DNA from: Mesohalobacter salilacus
Lineage (GTDB): Bacteria; Bacteroidota; Bacteroidia; Flavobacteriales; Flavobacteriaceae
Assembly (NCBI GenBank): GCA_003931895.1
Contig: RRZV01000007.1
Location: 1 to 34,057 of the forward strand
DNA length: 34,057 nt
Reading direction: 5' to 3'
Below, one piece after another: positions 4,045 to 30,509 of this stretch. The position numbers and the translations under genes were made by a program. Position 1 is the first letter of the stretch; every line of letters begins with the position of its first letter. Below the pieces are notes generated by a model that worked only from the letters and a program-made list of their open reading frames with translations, searched no databases and was not told the origin of the DNA.

Positions 4045-5343
4045 TCAGAAATTTGATTTTTTATTATTCAAAATTTTGTCCAATGCTTCAATAGTATGGT
4101 CTAAATCTTCATAAGTTAACGCCTCGTTGAGGAAGTAACTTTCAAAAGCACTTGGTGGCAAATACACGCCTTGTTCTAACATTCCGTGAAAATAATCTTT
4201 AAATTTTTGGTTATTGCCTTTGGCAGCACTTTCAAAATCGCTTACGGGTTCGTTAGTAAAATGAACTGACAACATTGAACCGAAACGGTTAATTTGATGT
4301 TCAACGCCGTGTTTGTTTAAAACCTTTTCTATTCCCTTATGCAGATACTTGGTTTTCTCTTCTAAGTTTTTGTAAATTTCAGGATGGTTATTCAAATGCT
4401 TTAATGTTTCGTAACCAGCCGTCATCGCAAGTGGATTTCCACTTAAAGTCCCAGCTTGATAAACTGGGCCTTCTGGGGCGAGATGAGACATGATATGCTG
4501 TGGTCCAGCAAAAGCACCAACAGGTAAACCGCCACCGATGACTTTTCCAAAACACACTAAGTCAGCTTTTATGCCTAAAGTTTCTTGAGCGCCTCCTTTT
4601 GCTAGTCTAAATCCAGTCATCACCTCGTCAAAAATTAAAAGAATATCGTGTTCATCACAGAGTTGTCTTAAACCTTTTATGAATGAATTTTCTGGTATAA
4701 TGCATCCCATATTTCCAGCAACGGGTTCAATGATAATGGCGGCAATTTCACCTTCATTAGCTTTTATAATCGACTTCACCTCATCTAAATTGTTGTAGGC
4801 TGCTAATAAAGTATCTTTTACTGTTCCTGGAGTAACGCCAGGACTATTAGGTGTTCCAAATGTTACAGCTCCACTCCCAGCTTGAATTAAAAATGCATCA
4901 CTATGACCGTGATAACAGCCTGCAAATTTTATGATTTTGTGCTTTCCAGTAAAACCTCTTGCTAATCTAACTGCACTCATGCAGGCTTCAGTTCCTGAAT
5001 TGACAAAACGAATTTTGTCAATATTGGGCACCATGTCAATAGCTAGTTTGGCGATTTTGGTTTCTAATTCAGTTGGTATGCCATAAGATGTTCCTTTTTT
5101 AGTCGCTTCAATCAGAGCTTCAACTACAGGTTCAAAAGCATGACCGAGAATCATTGGTCCCCAAGATGAAATATAGTCGATCAGTTTCCTGTCATCTTCA
5201 TCATAAAGATATGCACCTTTGGCACGTTTAACAAAAATAGGATCGCCACCAACTGCGGTAAATGCTCTTACGGGAGAGTTAACACCACCAACAATATATT
5301 GTTTAGCCTCATTAAAAAGTGCGCTACTGCGTTTATAAATCAT
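4045..5343 (-). CDS. hemL: Glutamate-1-semialdehyde 2,1-aminomutase
   Basis: PLP-dependent aminomutase that converts glutamate-1-semialdehyde to 5-aminolevulinate, the C5-pathway precursor of heme. It is 432 aa, the usual length. The PLP Schiff-base lysine is K267 in [15 protein letters not shown], and D239 in [10 protein letters not shown] is the aspartate that pairs with the pyridine nitrogen. [15 protein letters not shown] (from 115) and GCYHGHSD (from 142) are family signatures. The start follows a TAnnTTTG promoter. The last 16 or so codons have a diverged duplicate at 3351-3399. The C-terminus [10 protein letters not shown] may therefore have replaced an original DEITPSL-type end. Confidence 0.97.
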
Positions 5344-5359
5344 AAAATGAATTTTTTTG

Positions 5360-5367
5360 CAAATTTA
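5360..5367 (-). promoter_or_regulatory. -7 promoter element of hemL
   Basis: On the minus strand TAAATTTG is an exact TAnnTTTG match, ending 16 nt before the hemL start codon. No convincing TTG is seen at the -33 position. Confidence 0.55.
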
Positions 5368-5406
5368 GGAGATAATCAAAGAAAAGAACTTTTAAAGCTT
5401 TAATTT

Positions 5407-6219
5407 CTATTTTAATTTTAATTGTTGTCCAATACTGATTTCATTACTTCTAAGGTTGTTGAGTTTTTTTAAATCTTCAACACTAATACCATAACGATTT
5501 GAAATACTGTATAGCGTATCGCCTTTTTTAACGCTGTGATAATTTTCCTTTGGTAAATTTCTCTTTTTTCTTTTACGTTTCTTTTTTTCAGACTTAGCAA
5601 CCTCATCATCGTATTTGTCAAGATTATAGCGTTCAATAAGACTTATCAGTTTTTTAGGATATTTTGGATCAGTGGCGTATCCCGCTTTTTTTAGGCCTCT
5701 AGCCCAAGCTTTGTAATCAGTAACATCGTAATTAAATAAAAAAGCATACCGACTCCGGTTAAACAAAAACAAAGAATGATCGCGATAAGAATATTCTGCA
5801 TGCGTATATTTTCTAAAGCACTCTTGAGCTTTATCGTCGTCATGATATACCTTCGCTCCTTTCCAATCATTGCACTTGATACCAAAATGATTATTAGAGC
5901 GACGTGTGAGTTGTCCCTGTCCATTACCCGACTCTAAAATACCTTGTGCTAAAGTAATACTGGCGGGAATACCAAAAAGCTTCATTTCTTGTTTAGCAAT
6001 ATCGGCGTACTGATAAATATAAGATTCTGTTTGTGAAAGATTTTTAGGCGCTTTTTTGACTTGACCTACAGAATTATATACTTTAGAGCGCTCTGTGACG
6101 GCTTCATTTGTTTTTGCTTTAGTAGGTCTTGTAGTTTGAGCACTTTTTTTCTTTGATCCACATGAATGTAAAAAAAGAGCTATAAATAAAAATAAAAGGT
6201 AAAATTTTAGATGTTTCAA
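5407..6219 (-). CDS. Lipoprotein glucosaminidase with C-terminal LysM domain
   Basis: Peptidoglycan hydrolase of the glucosaminidase family (PF01832). The likely start is the TTG at 6217-6219, giving 270 aa that open with MKHLKFYLLFLFIALFLHSC, a clean lipoprotein signal peptide with acylated C20. An ATG at 6282 would add 21 residues that spoil the signal peptide, overlap the upstream gene and contain the promoter. The catalytic domain spans about 65-210. Its probable catalytic glutamate is E96 in AQGILESGNG, and NNHFGIKC follows. A basic linker with many Lys/Arg precedes a LysM domain (about 227-270) that binds glycan. It probably acts in cell wall remodelling at the periplasmic face of a membrane. 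Confidence 0.9.
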   Translation of the reverse strand: MKHLKFYLLFLFIALFLHSCGSKKKSAQTTRPTKAKTNEAVTERSKVYNSVGQVKKAPKNLSQTESYIYQYADIAKQEMKLFGIPASITLAQGILESGNGQGQLTRRSNNHFGIKCNDWKGAKVYHDDDKAQECFRKYTHAEYSYRDHSLFLFNRSRYAFLFNYDVTDYKAWARGLKKAGYATDPKYPKKLISLIERYNLDKYDDEVAKSEKKKRKRKKRNLPKENYHSVKKGDTLYSISNRYGISVEDLKKLNNLRSNEISIGQQLKLK

Positions 6220-6239
6220 GGTGACATATTTTGCGTGCG

Positions 6240-6270
6240 TAAATATACTTAATCGAGTTTTGATAACCAA
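6240..6270 (-). promoter_or_regulatory. Promoter of the glucosaminidase gene
   Basis: On the minus strand TTG (6268-6270) and TATATTTA (6240-6247, one mismatch to TAnnTTTG) are 20 nt apart. The -7 element lies 20 nt upstream of the proposed TTG start at 6219 and inside the extended reading frame. This supports the shorter protein. Confidence 0.55.
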
Positions 6271-6271
6271 T

Positions 6272-7201
6272 TTAAAACTCAATACAAGGTTTATTTTTTA
6301 AACTTTGCTGTTGATTAAATCCTATGATACCTTGCAAACCACCCGTGTGAATAATTAAAATTTTAGTATTGTTTTTAAAATGATTTTGTTCTATCATTTT
6401 AAAAAGCTGGTATAGCATTTTACCTGTATATATCGGGTCTAATTTGATGGATGTGCAACGATAAAAACTATTGATAAACTCTATTAATTGAGGGTTAGTT
6501 TTAGCATAACCTCCAAAATTATTGTCTTGAAAAATCGTCCAGTTGTCACGTTTTACCCATTGTTTAATTTCAGCGTGATTGTGATTTTTTAAAGCAGAAA
6601 ACCCATAGACATGTTGATGCTTACAGGTGGAGTTGATAATTCCCGCAAGTGTTCCTCCAGTACCAACACAACAAGCAATTACATCATATTTTTTGTCAGA
6701 GGCTGATAAAATTTCTTCACAGCCTTTAACCGCTAGTGCATTTGTTCCACCTTCAGGTATGCGATAAAACGAGCCAAACCTTTGTTGAAGTTTTTTAATT
6801 TCATTCGTATCATCCTTTTTCTTATAATCTTTTCGGCTGATAAAATGCAGTTGCATATCTTGCTGTTGAGCATAGCTTAAAGTTGGATTGTGGTTTGGAT
6901 TTTCTTCTAACTTGTGTTTAAGTTCTTCACCTCTAATAACACCAATACTTTTTAACCCGCAAATGTTAGCAGCAGTTGCTGTTGCTGCAATGTGATTTGA
7001 AAAAGCGCCACCATAAGTCAATATAGTATGATTTTTCTCTGAAAAAGCTTGTATAATATTGTACTTTAGTTTTCTAAATTTATTCCCTGAAACTAATGGG
7101 TGAATTTGATCTTCGCGTTTAATATCAACAGAAATATGGCGAGTTTTGTCACAATATACATTTTGTATTGCACTATCATATGAAGCGTCAAAAAACGACA
7201 T
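6272..7201 (-). CDS. PLP-dependent ACC deaminase/D-cysteine desulfhydrase family protein
   Basis: 309-aa fold-type II PLP enzyme related to 1-aminocyclopropane-1-carboxylate deaminase and D-cysteine desulfhydrase. K41 in SGNKFRKLKYN is the PLP lysine. YGGAFSNHIAATA (from about 63) is the conserved Ser-Asn substrate loop. CCVGTGGTLAGI near 175 binds the PLP phosphate, and IIHTGGLQG closes the active site near the C-terminus. Which amino acid it deaminates cannot be decided from sequence; D-cysteine desulfhydrase-type activity is more common than true ACC deaminase in bacteria outside the rhizosphere. The gene is transcribed toward the glucosaminidase gene in the same direction. Confidence 0.88.
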   Translation of the reverse strand: MSFFDASYDSAIQNVYCDKTRHISVDIKREDQIHPLVSGNKFRKLKYNIIQAFSEKNHTILTYGGAFSNHIAATATAANICGLKSIGVIRGEELKHKLEENPNHNPTLSYAQQQDMQLHFISRKDYKKKDDTNEIKKLQQRFGSFYRIPEGGTNALAVKGCEEILSASDKKYDVIACCVGTGGTLAGIINSTCKHQHVYGFSALKNHNHAEIKQWVKRDNWTIFQDNNFGGYAKTNPQLIEFINSFYRCTSIKLDPIYTGKMLYQLFKMIEQNHFKNNTKILIIHTGGLQGIIGFNQQQSLKNKPCIEF

Positions 7202-7222
7202 ATTAGATTTTTAAAAGTCTCA

Positions 7223-7230
7223 CAAAATTA
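7223..7230 (-). promoter_or_regulatory. -7 promoter element of the PLP enzyme gene
   Basis: On the minus strand TAATTTTG matches TAnnTTTG exactly, 21 nt before the start at 7201. It is divergent from the promoter of the DUF5522 gene 35 bp away. Confidence 0.5.
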
Positions 7231-7264
7231 AGATTAATCAAATTACATAAACCTACTAAATATG

Positions 7265-7272
7265 TATTTTTG
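7265..7272 (+). promoter_or_regulatory. -7 promoter element of the DUF5522-hutU operon
   Basis: TATTTTTG is an exact TAnnTTTG element ending 5 nt before the DUF5522 ATG. Transcription would start at or beside the start codon, so the mRNA is probably leaderless. Confidence 0.55.
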
Positions 7273-7277
7273 TAAAC

Positions 7278-7430
7278 ATGAAGAAAATAATTCCATTAGA
7301 AGAAGGCGATTATTATATCACAGATGAAGGTTACCGCTGTTTTACAGAGCAATACCATTTAAAACGAGGCTATTGCTGTAAAAGTGGATGTCGGCATTGT
7401 CCTTATGGATTTAATAAAAATATTGAATAG
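7278..7430 (+). CDS. DUF5522 family small cysteine-rich protein
   Basis: 50-aa protein beginning MKKIIPLEEGDYYITDEGYR and ending with CCKSGCRHCPYGFNKNIE. The closely spaced cysteines and histidine (GYCCKSGCRHCPYGF) look like a metal-binding knuckle and fit the short DUF5522 family found in Bacteroidota. The start follows a TAnnTTTG element, and the stop is 2 nt before the urocanate hydratase start, so the two are cotranscribed. Its function is unknown. Confidence 0.8.
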   Translation: MKKIIPLEEGDYYITDEGYRCFTEQYHLKRGYCCKSGCRHCPYGFNKNIE

Positions 7431-7432
7431 TT

Positions 7433-9472
7433 ATGGTTGAAGCTCAATTAGATTTCCAAACAAGCATTAAGACAGGTATTCCTAAAGATTTACCTGAAAT
7501 TAAAACTTATGATGATAGTATCAATCATGCGCCGAAACGAAAAGACATTCTGAATACAGAAGAGAAAAAACTGGCACTTCAAAATGCCTTGCGCTATTTT
7601 GAGCCAAAGCATCACGAGACTTTAGCTAGAGAATTTTTAGATGAATTGAATACTTATGGTCGAATATACATGTATCGTTTTAGACCAGAATATGAAATGT
7701 ATGCCAGGCCGATAGACGAGTATCCTGGACAATCTGAGCAAGCTAAAGGCATTATGTTGATGATTCAAAATAATCTTGATCCCAAAGTGGCTCAACATCC
7801 TCACGAATTAATCACTTATGGAGGTAATGGCGCTGTTTTTCAAAATTGGGCACAGTATCTGTTAACCATGCAATATCTTTCTGAAATGACAGACGAACAA
7901 ACCTTGGTAATGTACTCTGGTCATCCCATGGGGTTGTTTCCTTCTCATCCTGAAGCACCGAGAGTTGTAGTTACCAATGGCATGATGATTCCTAATTATT
8001 CTAAACCTGACGACTGGGAAAAATATAACGCACTCGGTGTAACTCAATATGGCCAAATGACGGCTGGTAGTTATATGTATATCGGTCCACAAGGCATCGT
8101 ACACGGGACGACAATTACCGTTTTAAATGCATTTAGAAAAATAAATAAATCGCCTGAAGGTGGATTGTTTGTTACCGCTGGACTTGGTGGTATGAGTGGT
8201 GCTCAACCAAAAGCAGGAAACATTGCAGGTTGCGTAACTGTTTGTGCAGAAGTTAACCCAAAGGCTATAAGAGTTAGACATAAGCAAGACTGGGTTGATG
8301 AAGTTTATGAAGATTTAGATGATCTTTGCGCTCGAGTAAAAGAAGCAAAGACAAATAAAGAAGCGGTCTCTATAGCTTTCGCAGGTAACATAGTTGACGT
8401 ATGGGAAACGTTTGATCAAGAACAAATCAAAATAGATATTGGGAGCGATCAAACATCTTTACATAATCCTTGGGCTGGAGGCTATTATCCTGTAGGTTAT
8501 TCTTATGAAGAATCTAACAAATTAATGGCAAATGAGCCGGAAATATTCAAAAGAGCAGTACAACAGAGTTTAAAAAAACATGTTGATGTCATCAATGCTC
8601 ACACAGCTAAAGGAACCTATTTTTTTGATTATGGTAATGCATTTTTATTAGAAGCTTCAAGAGCTGGGGCTAAAATTTATAAAAATGAGAAGGGAAAAAT
8701 GGTTGATAAATCTGAATGCGGTAATCCTGATAAATTTGCTTATTCAAGTTATGTACAAGACATTATGGGACCCATGTGTTTCGATTATGGATTTGGACCA
8801 TTTAGGTGGGTTTGTGCTAGTGGTAGAGACGAGGATTTAGACAAGACTGATGAATTAGCCTGCAAGATACTTCAGCAGCAATCTGAAAATGCCCCTGATG
8901 AAATAAAACAACAAATGCAGGATAATATCACTTGGATACAAGGTGCTAAAGCTAATAAACTCGTCGTTGGTTCTAAAGCAAGAATTTTATATGCTGATGC
9001 CGAAGGTCGAATGAAAATTGCCAAAGCATTTAATGACGCTATAAAAAATGGAGAAATAGGCTCTGTGATATTAGGAAGAGATCATCACGATGTTTCGGGC
9101 ACCGATTCGCCATATCGAGAGACGTCTAATATTTATGATGGAAGTCAGTTTACAGCGGACATGGCTATTCAAAATGTGATAGGCGATAGCTTTAGAGGAG
9201 CAACCTGGGTTAGTATTCACAATGGCGGTGGCGTTGGCTGGGGCGAAGTAGTTAATGGTGGATTTGGCATGGTACTTGATGGTAGTATAAATGCGGAGCG
9301 CCGATTAAAAAATATGTTGCATTGGGATGTTAATAATGGCATTTCTCGACGAGCTTGGGCAAAAAATGATGGAGCTGTTTTTGCCATAAAGCGTGCAATG
9401 GAAGAAGAACCTTTACTCAAGGTAACACTAGCTCAACAAGTCAAAGAAGATGAAATAAATAAATTGTTATGA
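7433..9472 (+). CDS. hutU: Urocanate hydratase (long form)
   Basis: Second enzyme of histidine degradation: it adds water to urocanate to give 4-imidazolone-5-propionate, using tightly bound NAD+ as an electrophile. ITYGGNGAVFQNW, SGHPMGLFPSHPEAPRVVVTNG and TAGLGGMSGAQPKA (NAD site) are diagnostic. The active-site cysteine is C461 in FRWVCASG, and GATWVSIHNGGGVGWGE lies in the C-terminal part. At 679 aa it is about 120 residues longer than the roughly 555-aa Pseudomonas/Bacillus type. The extra length is mainly an N-terminal extension and insertions around residues 370-520. No other hut genes are nearby. It overlaps the next gene by 4 nt (ATGA). Confidence 0.95.
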   Translation: MVEAQLDFQTSIKTGIPKDLPEIKTYDDSINHAPKRKDILNTEEKKLALQNALRYFEPKHHETLAREFLDELNTYGRIYMYRFRPEYEMYARPIDEYPGQSEQAKGIMLMIQNNLDPKVAQHPHELITYGGNGAVFQNWAQYLLTMQYLSEMTDEQTLVMYSGHPMGLFPSHPEAPRVVVTNGMMIPNYSKPDDWEKYNALGVTQYGQMTAGSYMYIGPQGIVHGTTITVLNAFRKINKSPEGGLFVTAGLGGMSGAQPKAGNIAGCVTVCAEVNPKAIRVRHKQDWVDEVYEDLDDLCARVKEAKTNKEAVSIAFAGNIVDVWETFDQEQIKIDIGSDQTSLHNPWAGGYYPVGYSYEESNKLMANEPEIFKRAVQQSLKKHVDVINAHTAKGTYFFDYGNAFLLEASRAGAKIYKNEKGKMVDKSECGNPDKFAYSSYVQDIMGPMCFDYGFGPFRWVCASGRDEDLDKTDELACKILQQQSENAPDEIKQQMQDNITWIQGAKANKLVVGSKARILYADAEGRMKIAKAFNDAIKNGEIGSVILGRDHHDVSGTDSPYRETSNIYDGSQFTADMAIQNVIGDSFRGATWVSIHNGGGVGWGEVVNGGFGMVLDGSINAERRLKNMLHWDVNNGISRRAWAKNDGAVFAIKRAMEEEPLLKVTLAQQVKEDEINKLL

Positions 9473-28790: not shown

Positions 28791-30509
28791 ATGAATCATT
28801 TTGTAGTTTCGGCAAGAAAATATAGACCTGAAACCTTTGACGAGGTTGTTGGGCAAAAGGCAGTCACGAGTACGCTAAAGAATGCCATTGACAATAATCA
28901 TTTGGCTCAAGCATTATTGTTTACTGGCCCGCGAGGCGTTGGTAAAACATCTTGCGCCCGAATTTTGGCTAAGACTATAAATCAATCTGAAGTTGAAAAA
29001 AATTCTGATTTTGCATTTAATATTTTTGAGCTTGATGCGGCATCAAACAACTCGGTAGATGATATCAGAAATTTAAACGACCAAGTGCGTATACCACCAC
29101 AGGCAGGAAAGTTTAAGGTTTATATTATTGATGAAGTTCATATGTTATCACAATCGGCATTTAATGCCTTTTTGAAAACGCTTGAAGAACCACCAAAACA
29201 CGCTATTTTTATTTTGGCTACAACAGAAAAACATAAAATTATTCCAACAATTTTATCACGTTGTCAAGTTTTTGATTTTAAGCGAATCACGGTTCAAGAC
29301 ATTAAAGAACACCTTAAAACTATAGCTACTAAAGAAGGCGTTGAGGCTGAAGATGGAGCATTACAAATCATTGCTCAAAAATCTGATGGTGCTATGCGTG
29401 ATGCACTTTCTACATATGATCGTGTGGTGAGCTATTGCGGGACTCATTTAACACGACCTGCCGTTGCTGAAAACTTAAATGTCTTAGATTTTGAAACATT
29501 TTTAAAAACCACAGATTTACTTCTAGAAGCTGATATTCCTGGTGTTTTAATGTATTTTAATTCGGTGCTGTCAAAAGGATACGACGGGCAGCATTTTATT
29601 TCTGGTTTGGCTTCTCACTTTAGAGATCTTTTAATTTGTAAAAACCCTTCTACTATTGAACTGCTCGAGGTTGACGAATCTACTCAAACGGCTTACAAAA
29701 ATCAAGCTAAAGCAATTAGCATGAAACAATTATTGAACTGTGTAGATTTAGCGAACAGATGTGATTTTAATTACAAATTAAGTCAAAATAAACGCCTTCA
29801 CGTCGAGTTATGCTTAATGAAACTGGCCTCTATTGAAGACGCAAATCTACAAAAAAAAAAGTCTCATAGCATAAATCCCCCTCAATCTCAAGAGAATAAA
29901 CAACCAGAATCAAGCATACCGAAAACAGAAACTCCAACGGCTGATCAAGAAAATAATACTAAGATTGAAGGAGTCTCTGAATATGCTGATTCTGAAAATT
30001 CTAAAGAGGCTTTAAACCCCTCTGAAAGTGATCAAGGTTTAAAACCTAAACCAACTAAAAAAAACGGACTTTCTTTAAAAGCCATTAAATACAAAAAGGA
30101 ACACGAAAATAAAACAAACGCTAACGATACACCTGAAGAAGTTCTAAGTAAAGATTACACGCTTGAAGACATTAAGTCTACTTGGATAAATTTTGCTGAG
30201 ATTATTGACAAAAAAGGAGAAAAACTCTTAGCCTCTACTCTACTTTCAGATATTCCCAAGTTAAACAAAAACTGTATTGAAATACAGATGCCAAACGAAA
30301 CTATGAAGATAGAAATTGTACAAAACAAAGGTCGTATTCTCAAGTACATTCAAAATTCACTTCAAAACACTCAGATAGACCTTAAGGTACATGTCAATGC
30401 TGCTCAGGAAAAGAAATATGTTCATACCAAAGAAGAAAAATACTTGCGATTAAAAGAAATCAACCCCAAAATAGAATTGCTTAAACAAAAGTTAGATTTA
30501 GATTTTTAA
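28791..30509 (+). CDS. dnaX: DNA polymerase III subunit gamma/tau
   Basis: Clamp-loader ATPase of 572 aa that links polymerase cores. Domain I starts MNHFVVSARKYRPETFDEVVGQ, with Walker A GPRGVGKTS (46-54), Walker B VYIIDEVHML (about 113-122) and the ILSRCQVF SRC motif. The usual zinc module after the first helices is missing: TINQSEVEKNSDFAFN (62-77) has no cysteines. Domain III ends about residue 350. A charged, probably disordered linker follows, then a C-terminal tau domain (about 440-572). An A10 run covers codons 354-357; slippage in either direction meets a stop almost at once, giving a gamma-like form near 359 aa. miaE follows after 2 nt. Confidence 0.95.
   Translation: MNHFVVSARKYRPETFDEVVGQKAVTSTLKNAIDNNHLAQALLFTGPRGVGKTSCARILAKTINQSEVEKNSDFAFNIFELDAASNNSVDDIRNLNDQVRIPPQAGKFKVYIIDEVHMLSQSAFNAFLKTLEEPPKHAIFILATTEKHKIIPTILSRCQVFDFKRITVQDIKEHLKTIATKEGVEAEDGALQIIAQKSDGAMRDALSTYDRVVSYCGTHLTRPAVAENLNVLDFETFLKTTDLLLEADIPGVLMYFNSVLSKGYDGQHFISGLASHFRDLLICKNPSTIELLEVDESTQTAYKNQAKAISMKQLLNCVDLANRCDFNYKLSQNKRLHVELCLMKLASIEDANLQKKKSHSINPPQSQENKQPESSIPKTETPTADQENNTKIEGVSEYADSENSKEALNPSESDQGLKPKPTKKNGLSLKAIKYKKEHENKTNANDTPEEVLSKDYTLEDIKSTWINFAEIIDKKGEKLLASTLLSDIPKLNKNCIEIQMPNETMKIEIVQNKGRILKYIQNSLQNTQIDLKVHVNAAQEKKYVHTKEEKYLRLKEINPKIELLKQKLDLDF
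29851..29869 (+). promoter_or_regulatory. Candidate dnaX slippage/frameshift site making the gamma form
   Basis: The frame reads CAA AAA AAA AAG TCT, containing ten A then G. A -1 shift on A-AAA-AAG continues GTC TCA TAG (stop 29867-29869). A +1 shift reads AGT CTC ATA GCA TAA (stop 29872-29874). The site lies just after domain III, the same place as the E. coli A-AAA-AAG frameshift and the Thermus A9 slippage site. Whether it slips is inferred. Confidence 0.6.

Follow-up and report, generated by a model that had tools for sequence, protein, structure and literature searches.

A run of ten adenines in flavobacterial dnaX as a putative transcriptional slippage site for the tau and gamma subunits

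Slippage-prone dnaX genes and the locus in Mesohalobacter salilacus

Among the closest described systems is dnaX of Thermus thermophilus, in which transcriptional slippage takes place at a run of nine A residues (A9) (Larsen 2000, as cited in PMC5009743 and PMC1088944). In that system tau is encoded in one frame, the A-homopolymer is followed closely by stops in both other frames, and a truncated gamma results. The field has been reviewed (Atkins 2016, PMC5009743). The GeneTack dnaX cluster comprises 17 genes from 12 genera, nine of them with a run of ten A residues (A10) at the tau/gamma junction, for which production of tau by recoding was predicted and transcriptional realignment was proposed (Antonov 2013, PMC3711429). 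Slippage at an A10 in dnaX is thus a prediction that already exists. In Escherichia coli the same product logic is served by a −1 shift of the ribosome at A_AAA_AAG. Slippage involving a stem-loop in the nascent RNA has been described at T5C5 in an IS630-type transposase of Roseiflexus (Penno 2015, as cited in PMC5009743), where, by the proposed mechanism, a hairpin forming at the hybrid edge melts the upstream end of the hybrid and pushes the RNA forward (PMC5009743). In IS1447 an A9 follows a predicted stem-loop, and measurements put slippage in either direction at about 16% (PMC6211511). In the RNA polymerase of Thermus the RNA–DNA hybrid varies between lengths of 9 and 10 bp (PMC5009743).

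Here, we report on dnaX in a 34,057-nucleotide stretch of contig RRZV01000007.1 of M. salilacus, the whole of which is referred to as the window, and on the dnaX genes of its relatives. The features of the locus are the following, all on the forward strand.

28791..30509, forward strand: dnaX, tau frame, 572 aa, 64.6 kDa (TIGR02397, 389.6 bits, above the cut-off)
29454..29843, forward strand: domain III of gamma/tau, residues 222–351 (Pfam PF12169)
29826..29850, forward strand: place corresponding to the upstream hairpin of related genera (18.6 bits, E 0.034 for the window alone)
29851..29860, forward strand: putative A10 slippage tract (seen in the sequence, conserved in relatives)
29855..29861, forward strand: A_AAA_AAG in frame, a possible ribosomal −1 site under a rival mechanism (seen in the sequence)
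29862..30509, forward strand: tau-specific linker and C-terminal region (from the sequence)
29867..29869, forward strand: TAG, stop of the −1 frame (one extra A), predicted gamma of 359 aa and 40.2 kDa
29872..29874, forward strand: TAA, stop of the +1 frame (after loss of one A or gain of two; seen in the sequence), predicted gamma of 360 aa

An earlier note on this DNA had placed ten A residues and a G at codons 354–357, directly after domain III, with a −1 shift ending at TAG 29867 after about 359 aa and a +1 shift ending at TAA 29872, and all of this proved exact. Codons 354–357 read CAA AAA AAA AAG, the run is followed by G29861, and PF12169 stops at residue 351, just 5′ of the site. Downstream of the run the −1 frame reads GTC TCA TAG, and the product of the +1 frame, reached with one A fewer, was computed from the window as 360 aa and 40.3 kDa. 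The two stop codons end 9 and 14 nt past the run. Exact A10 runs are scarce in the own genome, with 14 in 2.84 Mb (both strands) against about 42 expected from the base frequencies of the window alone.

The window thus displays two features of the Thermus kind of site, namely a run of at least nine A residues at the gamma/tau junction and close stops in both other frames. It differs in that the run is ten long and lies at codon 354 of 572, just after domain III, whereas the Thermus site is placed seven-eighths through the gene; moreover, most of the related flavobacterial genera examined carry an upstream hairpin. The GeneTack cluster corresponds to relatives in which tau is out of phase in the DNA, and some of the out-of-phase genera found here may be among its 12. 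The window gene is, in contrast, in frame, and the available portions of that paper treat −1 cases only, with neither a hairpin nor a selected double stop nor repeated switching. The E. coli heptamer sits in the correct frame inside the A10 of the window; however, the 30 nt upstream hold neither GGAG nor AGGA as a Shine-Dalgarno-like stimulator, strong downstream structure is lacking, and selection in this lineage extends to a run of ten and to a +1 stop. Judging from sequence comparison, we consider it quite probable that transcriptional slippage at the A10 is programmed and that tau and gamma are both obtained from one gene in this way. By itself the window site would be a further example of known dnaX slippage, and it is the hairpin of related genera and the repeatedly switched frame that would be new; a search of titles and the starts of abstracts, with most subscription papers outside its reach, returned no prior report of a flavobacterial dnaX hairpin, a selected double stop or repeated switching.

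The run and the two stops in related genomes

Matches to dnaX were obtained in 26 of 27 Psychroflexus genomes, the own genome of the window included, in 392 of 395 searched genomes of the family, in 57 of 59 of the order and in 97 of 99 of the phylum, the last two sets being read in part. Among the 150 family matches listed, 12 had an open frame of only 360–376 aa, and 110 were read (30 loci, partly overlapping with the genus set, together with 80 stretches), with closer relatives favoured. Altogether 304 loci, including 80 named records, were reduced to 266 by dropping those at least 98.5% identical over domains I–III. The 186 regarded as flavobacterial consist of the searched family together with named records of at least 72% identity, for which family was assigned by identity. 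The compared sequences are related to one another and the fetched set is weighted towards closer relatives. Run length was measured as the longest stretch of A's in an interval that starts 30 nt before the expected place and ends 150 nt beyond it.

A long A-run was kept in all 26 Psychroflexus genes (23 A10, two A11 and one A9). The strict arrangement of the window, with A10 in the same phase, G next and the heptamer A_AAA_AAG, occurred in 18 of them, and the base before the run, the base after it and the phase vary within the genus. The 186 flavobacterial representatives comprised 171 with A10, nine with A11, two with A9, two with A13 (one of which, L248, has its run end at the contig end), one with A12 and one with A14, so that at least A10 was present in 184. 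Neither A7 nor A8, the lengths to which a synonymous G beside the heptamer would reduce the run, was seen among the 186. The earlier note had raised the question whether the run persists despite divergence, and it does; interruption of the run by a synonymous G in relatives, which would have spoken against it, was not encountered, the shortest runs being the two of A9. In other families of the order at least A9 was found in 37 of 42 dnaX genes, and outside the order (class and phylum) in 29 of 38 representatives, the remaining nine having no run of A9 or more. Four loci of family f24 are examples of loci without the run. A10 is present even in loci of 62–64% GC. These distributions indicate that the A-run is under strong selection.

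Codon usage in the Lys-rich linker of an AT-rich genome could in principle produce such a run as a by-product, with a single protein made, and the linker peptide is indeed partly conserved while AAA accounts for about 75% of the Lys codons in these genes. We regard this as very unlikely. At 11 conserved Lys columns elsewhere in domains I–III the AAA share is only 46–89%, and the run is retained in GC-rich loci and where the linker peptide changes. For the 174 genes that are in frame and in phase 1 with a run of at least A10, which were preselected for that run, codon use in the same genes (GAA 75%, AAA 75% and CAA 68% of the codons for their amino acids) predicts an all-A E/Q-K-K in 42%; the unselected figure is the run-length count of the 186. 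Codon usage also leaves aside that the stops beyond the run are placed by synonymous choice, that out-of-phase genes would make no intact tau, and that a comparable coding A10 elsewhere is not conserved. The latter lies in dinB, encoding DNA polymerase IV (L313:303-1364, contig C11 of the own genome; peptide LKKKS). It was considered as a second slippage gene and rejected, since none of the 25 congeners readable at this place has the run or anything longer than A8; dinB matches were found in 27 of 27 genomes, one being too short to read at the site. The use of GAA at the start of the run (153 of 153 Glu codons) was likewise dropped as evidence, because it follows by construction once the start of the run is set by its A's.

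Stops in the two other frames were compared with expectations obtained by resampling the downstream codons synonymously from the usage of each gene, in 165 in-frame flavobacterial genes (167 minus two with fewer than 40 codons downstream). A −1 stop within 12 nt was found in 160 (89 expected) and a +1 stop within 20 nt in the same number (46 expected); 157 genes had the two together within 21 nt (about 25 expected). After thinning to less than 80% identity both stops were found in 13 of 14 genes (2.7 expected), and in Psychroflexus alone in 23 of 24 (4.5 expected). The stops, like the run, are therefore kept despite divergence, which the earlier note had also asked about. Within 12 codons after the run, 127 of 167 in-frame genes encode an I[IV]P motif, and all but one of the 127 (126) use ATA for the first Ile of the motif, against a background of 981 in 4614 Ile codons (21%; domains I–III of the 167 genes). 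ATA followed by A creates a TAA in the +1 frame. Psychroflexus forms its +1 stop by means other than the ATA of I[IV]P, which argues that the stop itself, and not one peptide, is held by selection. The double stop thus appears to be selected through synonymous codon choice. Stops in both frames favour transcriptional slippage over −1 ribosomal frameshifting, since a +1 stop is useless to a −1 shift alone; it would be of use where the polymerase inserts one or two extra A's or skips one.

Programmed −1 ribosomal frameshifting at A_AAA_AAG would make gamma in the manner of E. coli dnaX, and we judge it rather unlikely as the route used here. It can draw on the heptamer lying in frame in the window and in the 18 strict Psychroflexus genes, and on a first sample in which downstream windows were slightly structured (mean z −0.5, 7 of 60 below −2; 200 nt further on, −0.07 and 0 of 59). 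However, it leaves the selected +1 stop unexplained, as well as the absence of A7 and A8, which the heptamer would allow, and in 96 of the 174 genes in frame and in phase 1 the run finishes within an AAT codon. Downstream structure is also weak: the window has −2.0 kcal/mol over 60 nt (z −0.4), and the mean z of −0.33 in 82 thinned genes falls within that of other gene windows (−0.05 to −0.44), with a small effect being possible. With regard to tRNA-Lys, which was considered for its bearing on ribosomal shifting and is counted neither for nor against it, an anticodon-arm pattern gave 39 matches in 12 genomes, and ARAGORN, applied to 30 of these, returned one tRNA-Lys(CTT), in genome G472, while the rest look like chance; a tRNA family search of the own genome had no tRNA-Lys among its 30 matches, with 150 of 279 candidates scored.

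In a side observation on the protein, the four-Cys zinc module of clamp-loader ATPases (residues ~60–85; window 28791–29828) is missing in flavobacterial DnaX. No Cys was present at these residues in 160 of 160 other flavobacterial sequences or in 25 of 25 readable Psychroflexus DnaX (26 in all). Outside the family, 22 of 52 readable DnaX had four Cys and 30 had none.

Genes with tau out of frame

Tau is out of frame in 19 of the 186 flavobacterial dnaX genes, and the frame of the DNA then ends a few codons after the run; for one of the 19 (L073) the contig ends too soon for certainty. Annotation would show all 19 as truncated or frameshifted genes, even though each encodes tau across the run. 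Several of them are found in genomes assembled as a single contig (G274, G245 and G401). Outside the family, tau was out of phase in seven of seven loci read in family f4 and in three of three in family f8. The whole set held 48 out-of-phase genes with at least A9, of which 44 had a C-terminus of at least 150 aa in the tau frame, and all 44 of these testable C-termini matched that of an in-frame tau. Among 31 out-of-phase representatives with exactly A10, tau continued in the −1 frame in 28 and in the +1 frame in three. The −1 bias fits insertion-prone slippage, as reported for Thermus, and fits −1 ribosomal shifting as well, to whose credit it must be counted; the +1 cases fit slippage only, unless they are sequencing errors, and tau in the +1 frame is left unexplained by ribosomal frameshifting.

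The frame has switched repeatedly. The single best FastTree tree of domains I–III, built on 233 rows with at least A9, requires a minimum of 22 changes between the in-phase and out-of-phase states for all rows, 15 for exact-A10 genes only when scored in three states, and eight for the flavobacterial exact-A10 genes. A change of run length during replication, which would turn tau off in some cells, is an alternative that a few relatives with other run lengths (A9, A11–A14) bring to mind, and congeners can differ. We find this phase variation exceedingly improbable. Tau is expected to be essential and would be silenced by it; the length is held tightly at ten in 171 of 186 genes; the A10 is retained in 12 of the 19 flavobacterial genes with tau out of phase, and genus g112 includes five species that are out of phase with an unchanged A10.

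Taken together, the selected +1 stop, a run longer than the heptamer needs, tau in the −1 or the +1 frame of relatives and little downstream structure make transcriptional slippage the likelier route, as had been suggested from the window alone.

Some of the out-of-phase genes call for individual mention. Those with A9 or A11–A14 in draft genomes may owe their state to homopolymer sequencing errors and are given no weight in the argument. L230 (Bizionia argentinensis), L032, L068/L266 (Neptunitalea) and L069 carry A9, A12 or A14 with tau out of frame, each in single draft genomes, and are either real or sequencing errors. In two order relatives of family f6 (L298 and L299) tau is out of frame while the longest nearby A-run is only A8 or A6; other loci of the same family carry A10, and a switch to ribosomal frameshifting is possible. 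Two loci of family f15 (L310 and L311), from 0.6-Mb genomes, have a dnaX with A11 whose longest continuation is in the +1 frame, which in such AT-rich sequence could be due to chance.

The upstream hairpin and the proposed mechanism

Directly upstream of the run, a stem of at least seven pairs within 2 nt of it was found in 125 of 160 flavobacterial dnaX genes outside Psychroflexus, where 12.1 would be expected (G–U pairs allowed, expectation by synonymous resampling). The stems have seven pairs in 28 genes, eight in 95 and nine in two, and in 122 there is no gap to the run. One example reads CTCTATCA-CTTT-TGATGGAG, then A10, with the 3′ arm ending at the first A. The codons that shape the hairpin are skewed in 155 phase-1 genes: GCC makes up 120 of 143 Ala codons (background 29%), ATC 109 of 121 Ile codons (background 19%) and GGA 127 of 136 Gly codons (background 30%). 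Covariation was assessed in 48 of 71 distinct sequences, 21 of which were picked for a weak, broken or offset-looking stem. Cells changed on both sides numbered 25 against 7.3 in shuffles, and the covariation score was 0.324 against 0.192 (0 of 500 shuffles as high in either case); one of the five covariation measures, the number of pairs with change on both sides, was not above shuffles (4 against 3.5). Slid versions of the alignment were all lower in score and in percentage paired. RNAalifold recovered four of eight pairs at −0.77 kcal/mol with rows lacking a clean stem retained. With a covariance model, dnaX was recovered in 11 of 12 genomes at E values no higher than 5e-5, and no other match fell below 0.7; some of the target sequences are inside the model, and 150 of ~5000–9400 first-look candidates were scored per genome, so that other places may be missed.

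Scoring by folding energy was less telling. Upstream windows had z below −2 in 20 of 61 genes of the first sample, while in the thinned set windows of 50 nt reaching up to the run averaged a z of only −0.42, with 10 of 84 below −2, and the upstream signal was clear only when scored as a stem adjoining the run.

The genus of the window stands apart. None of the 26 Psychroflexus dnaX genes, the window included, has such a stem (at least seven pairs within 2 nt of the run; 0.3 expected). At 29826–29850 of the window the letters of the 5′ arm remain while the 3′ arm is changed, and no stem adjoins the run; a covariance search of the own genome, with 150 candidates scored, did not have dnaX among its matches, although the site reaches its 18.6 bits when the window is searched alone. 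Beyond Flavobacteriaceae a stem was found in four of 66 other Bacteroidota dnaX genes (2.3 expected), and the hairpin is not claimed there. In flavobacterial genes a G follows the run more often where the hairpin is absent (38 of 61) than where it is present (20 of 125, one of these being cut off at the run), which would suit a ribosomal shift in the hairpin-less genes. Phylogenetically independent pairs do not, however, support the association, with only 6–7 on supported branches and a median p of 1. A link between the out-of-phase state and the hairpin was likewise not supported (nine independent pairs).

A hairpin followed directly by a homopolymer also recalls a transcription terminator or attenuator. 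This reading of the relatives is extremely unlikely, since the RNA tail would be A and not U, the opposite strand has its T-run before the hairpin, so that the order of a terminator is found on neither strand, and the hairpin is absent in the genus of the window. A resemblance to the Roseiflexus transposase concerns the relatives of the window only: a short stem with a 4-nt loop and a 3′ arm adjoining the run, in the same place and of similar size. It differs in that dnaX is a housekeeping gene with an A10 homopolymer and stops in both wrong frames, and in that the window itself has no hairpin. IS1447 is similar in that a hairpin precedes an A-run and slippage goes in both directions, but it is an insertion sequence, two A's of the run are in the stem, and its hairpin comes from structure prediction (PMC6211511).

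Given the conserved run, stops and hairpin and the switches of frame, we propose that over the run an RNA–DNA hybrid of 9–10 bp would consist entirely of rA–dT pairs, such that the RNA could re-register and gain or lose A's. If the 9–10 bp of Thermus hold here, the hybrid would fit inside the ten A's and a re-registered RNA would still be fully paired. Messenger RNAs with 10 or 10+3n A's would give tau. With any other number of A's, translation would reach a stop after a few codons, whichever of the two wrong frames is entered, and yield a gamma ending just after domain III. In most Flavobacteriaceae examined, a hairpin in the nascent RNA that extends with its 3′ arm to the first A would make re-registering easier, and Psychroflexus, which has no hairpin, would rely on the run alone. 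The lack of a hairpin and the strict heptamer of most of its genes leave room for a ribosomal share in that genus; nevertheless the run alone is the likelier explanation than a ribosomal contribution at A_AAA_AAG, because the +1 stop is kept there too. That slippage occurs, that it does so in transcription and with what efficiency, and that gamma is made and used, we infer from the pattern of conservation. Since one gene would yield both products either way, it may be tau or gamma that the DNA templates, and the templated frame has changed repeatedly among lineages.

A broader proposition, held with less assurance but still favoured, is that in Flavobacteriaceae, and probably in much of Bacteroidota, tau and gamma are split at an A10, led by the terminator-like hairpin in most flavobacteria, with slippage so frequent that either product may be the one encoded. 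The A10 and the double stop would be held while the frame of the DNA is switched often, and Psychroflexus would have lost the hairpin or never had it. If this is true, the DNA frame of a presumably essential gene is nearly neutral, and selection holds the ten A's and the double stop instead. The importance of gamma to cells has long been argued. In this large family a two-product signal is held that includes synonymous codons for which no use is evident other than closing off a wrong frame, and selection on such a signal suggests that gamma, or a set ratio of gamma to tau, has probably been useful for a very long time. The natural pairs of in-phase and out-of-phase genes, and of genes with and without the hairpin, allow direct tests of what determines the efficiency of slippage.
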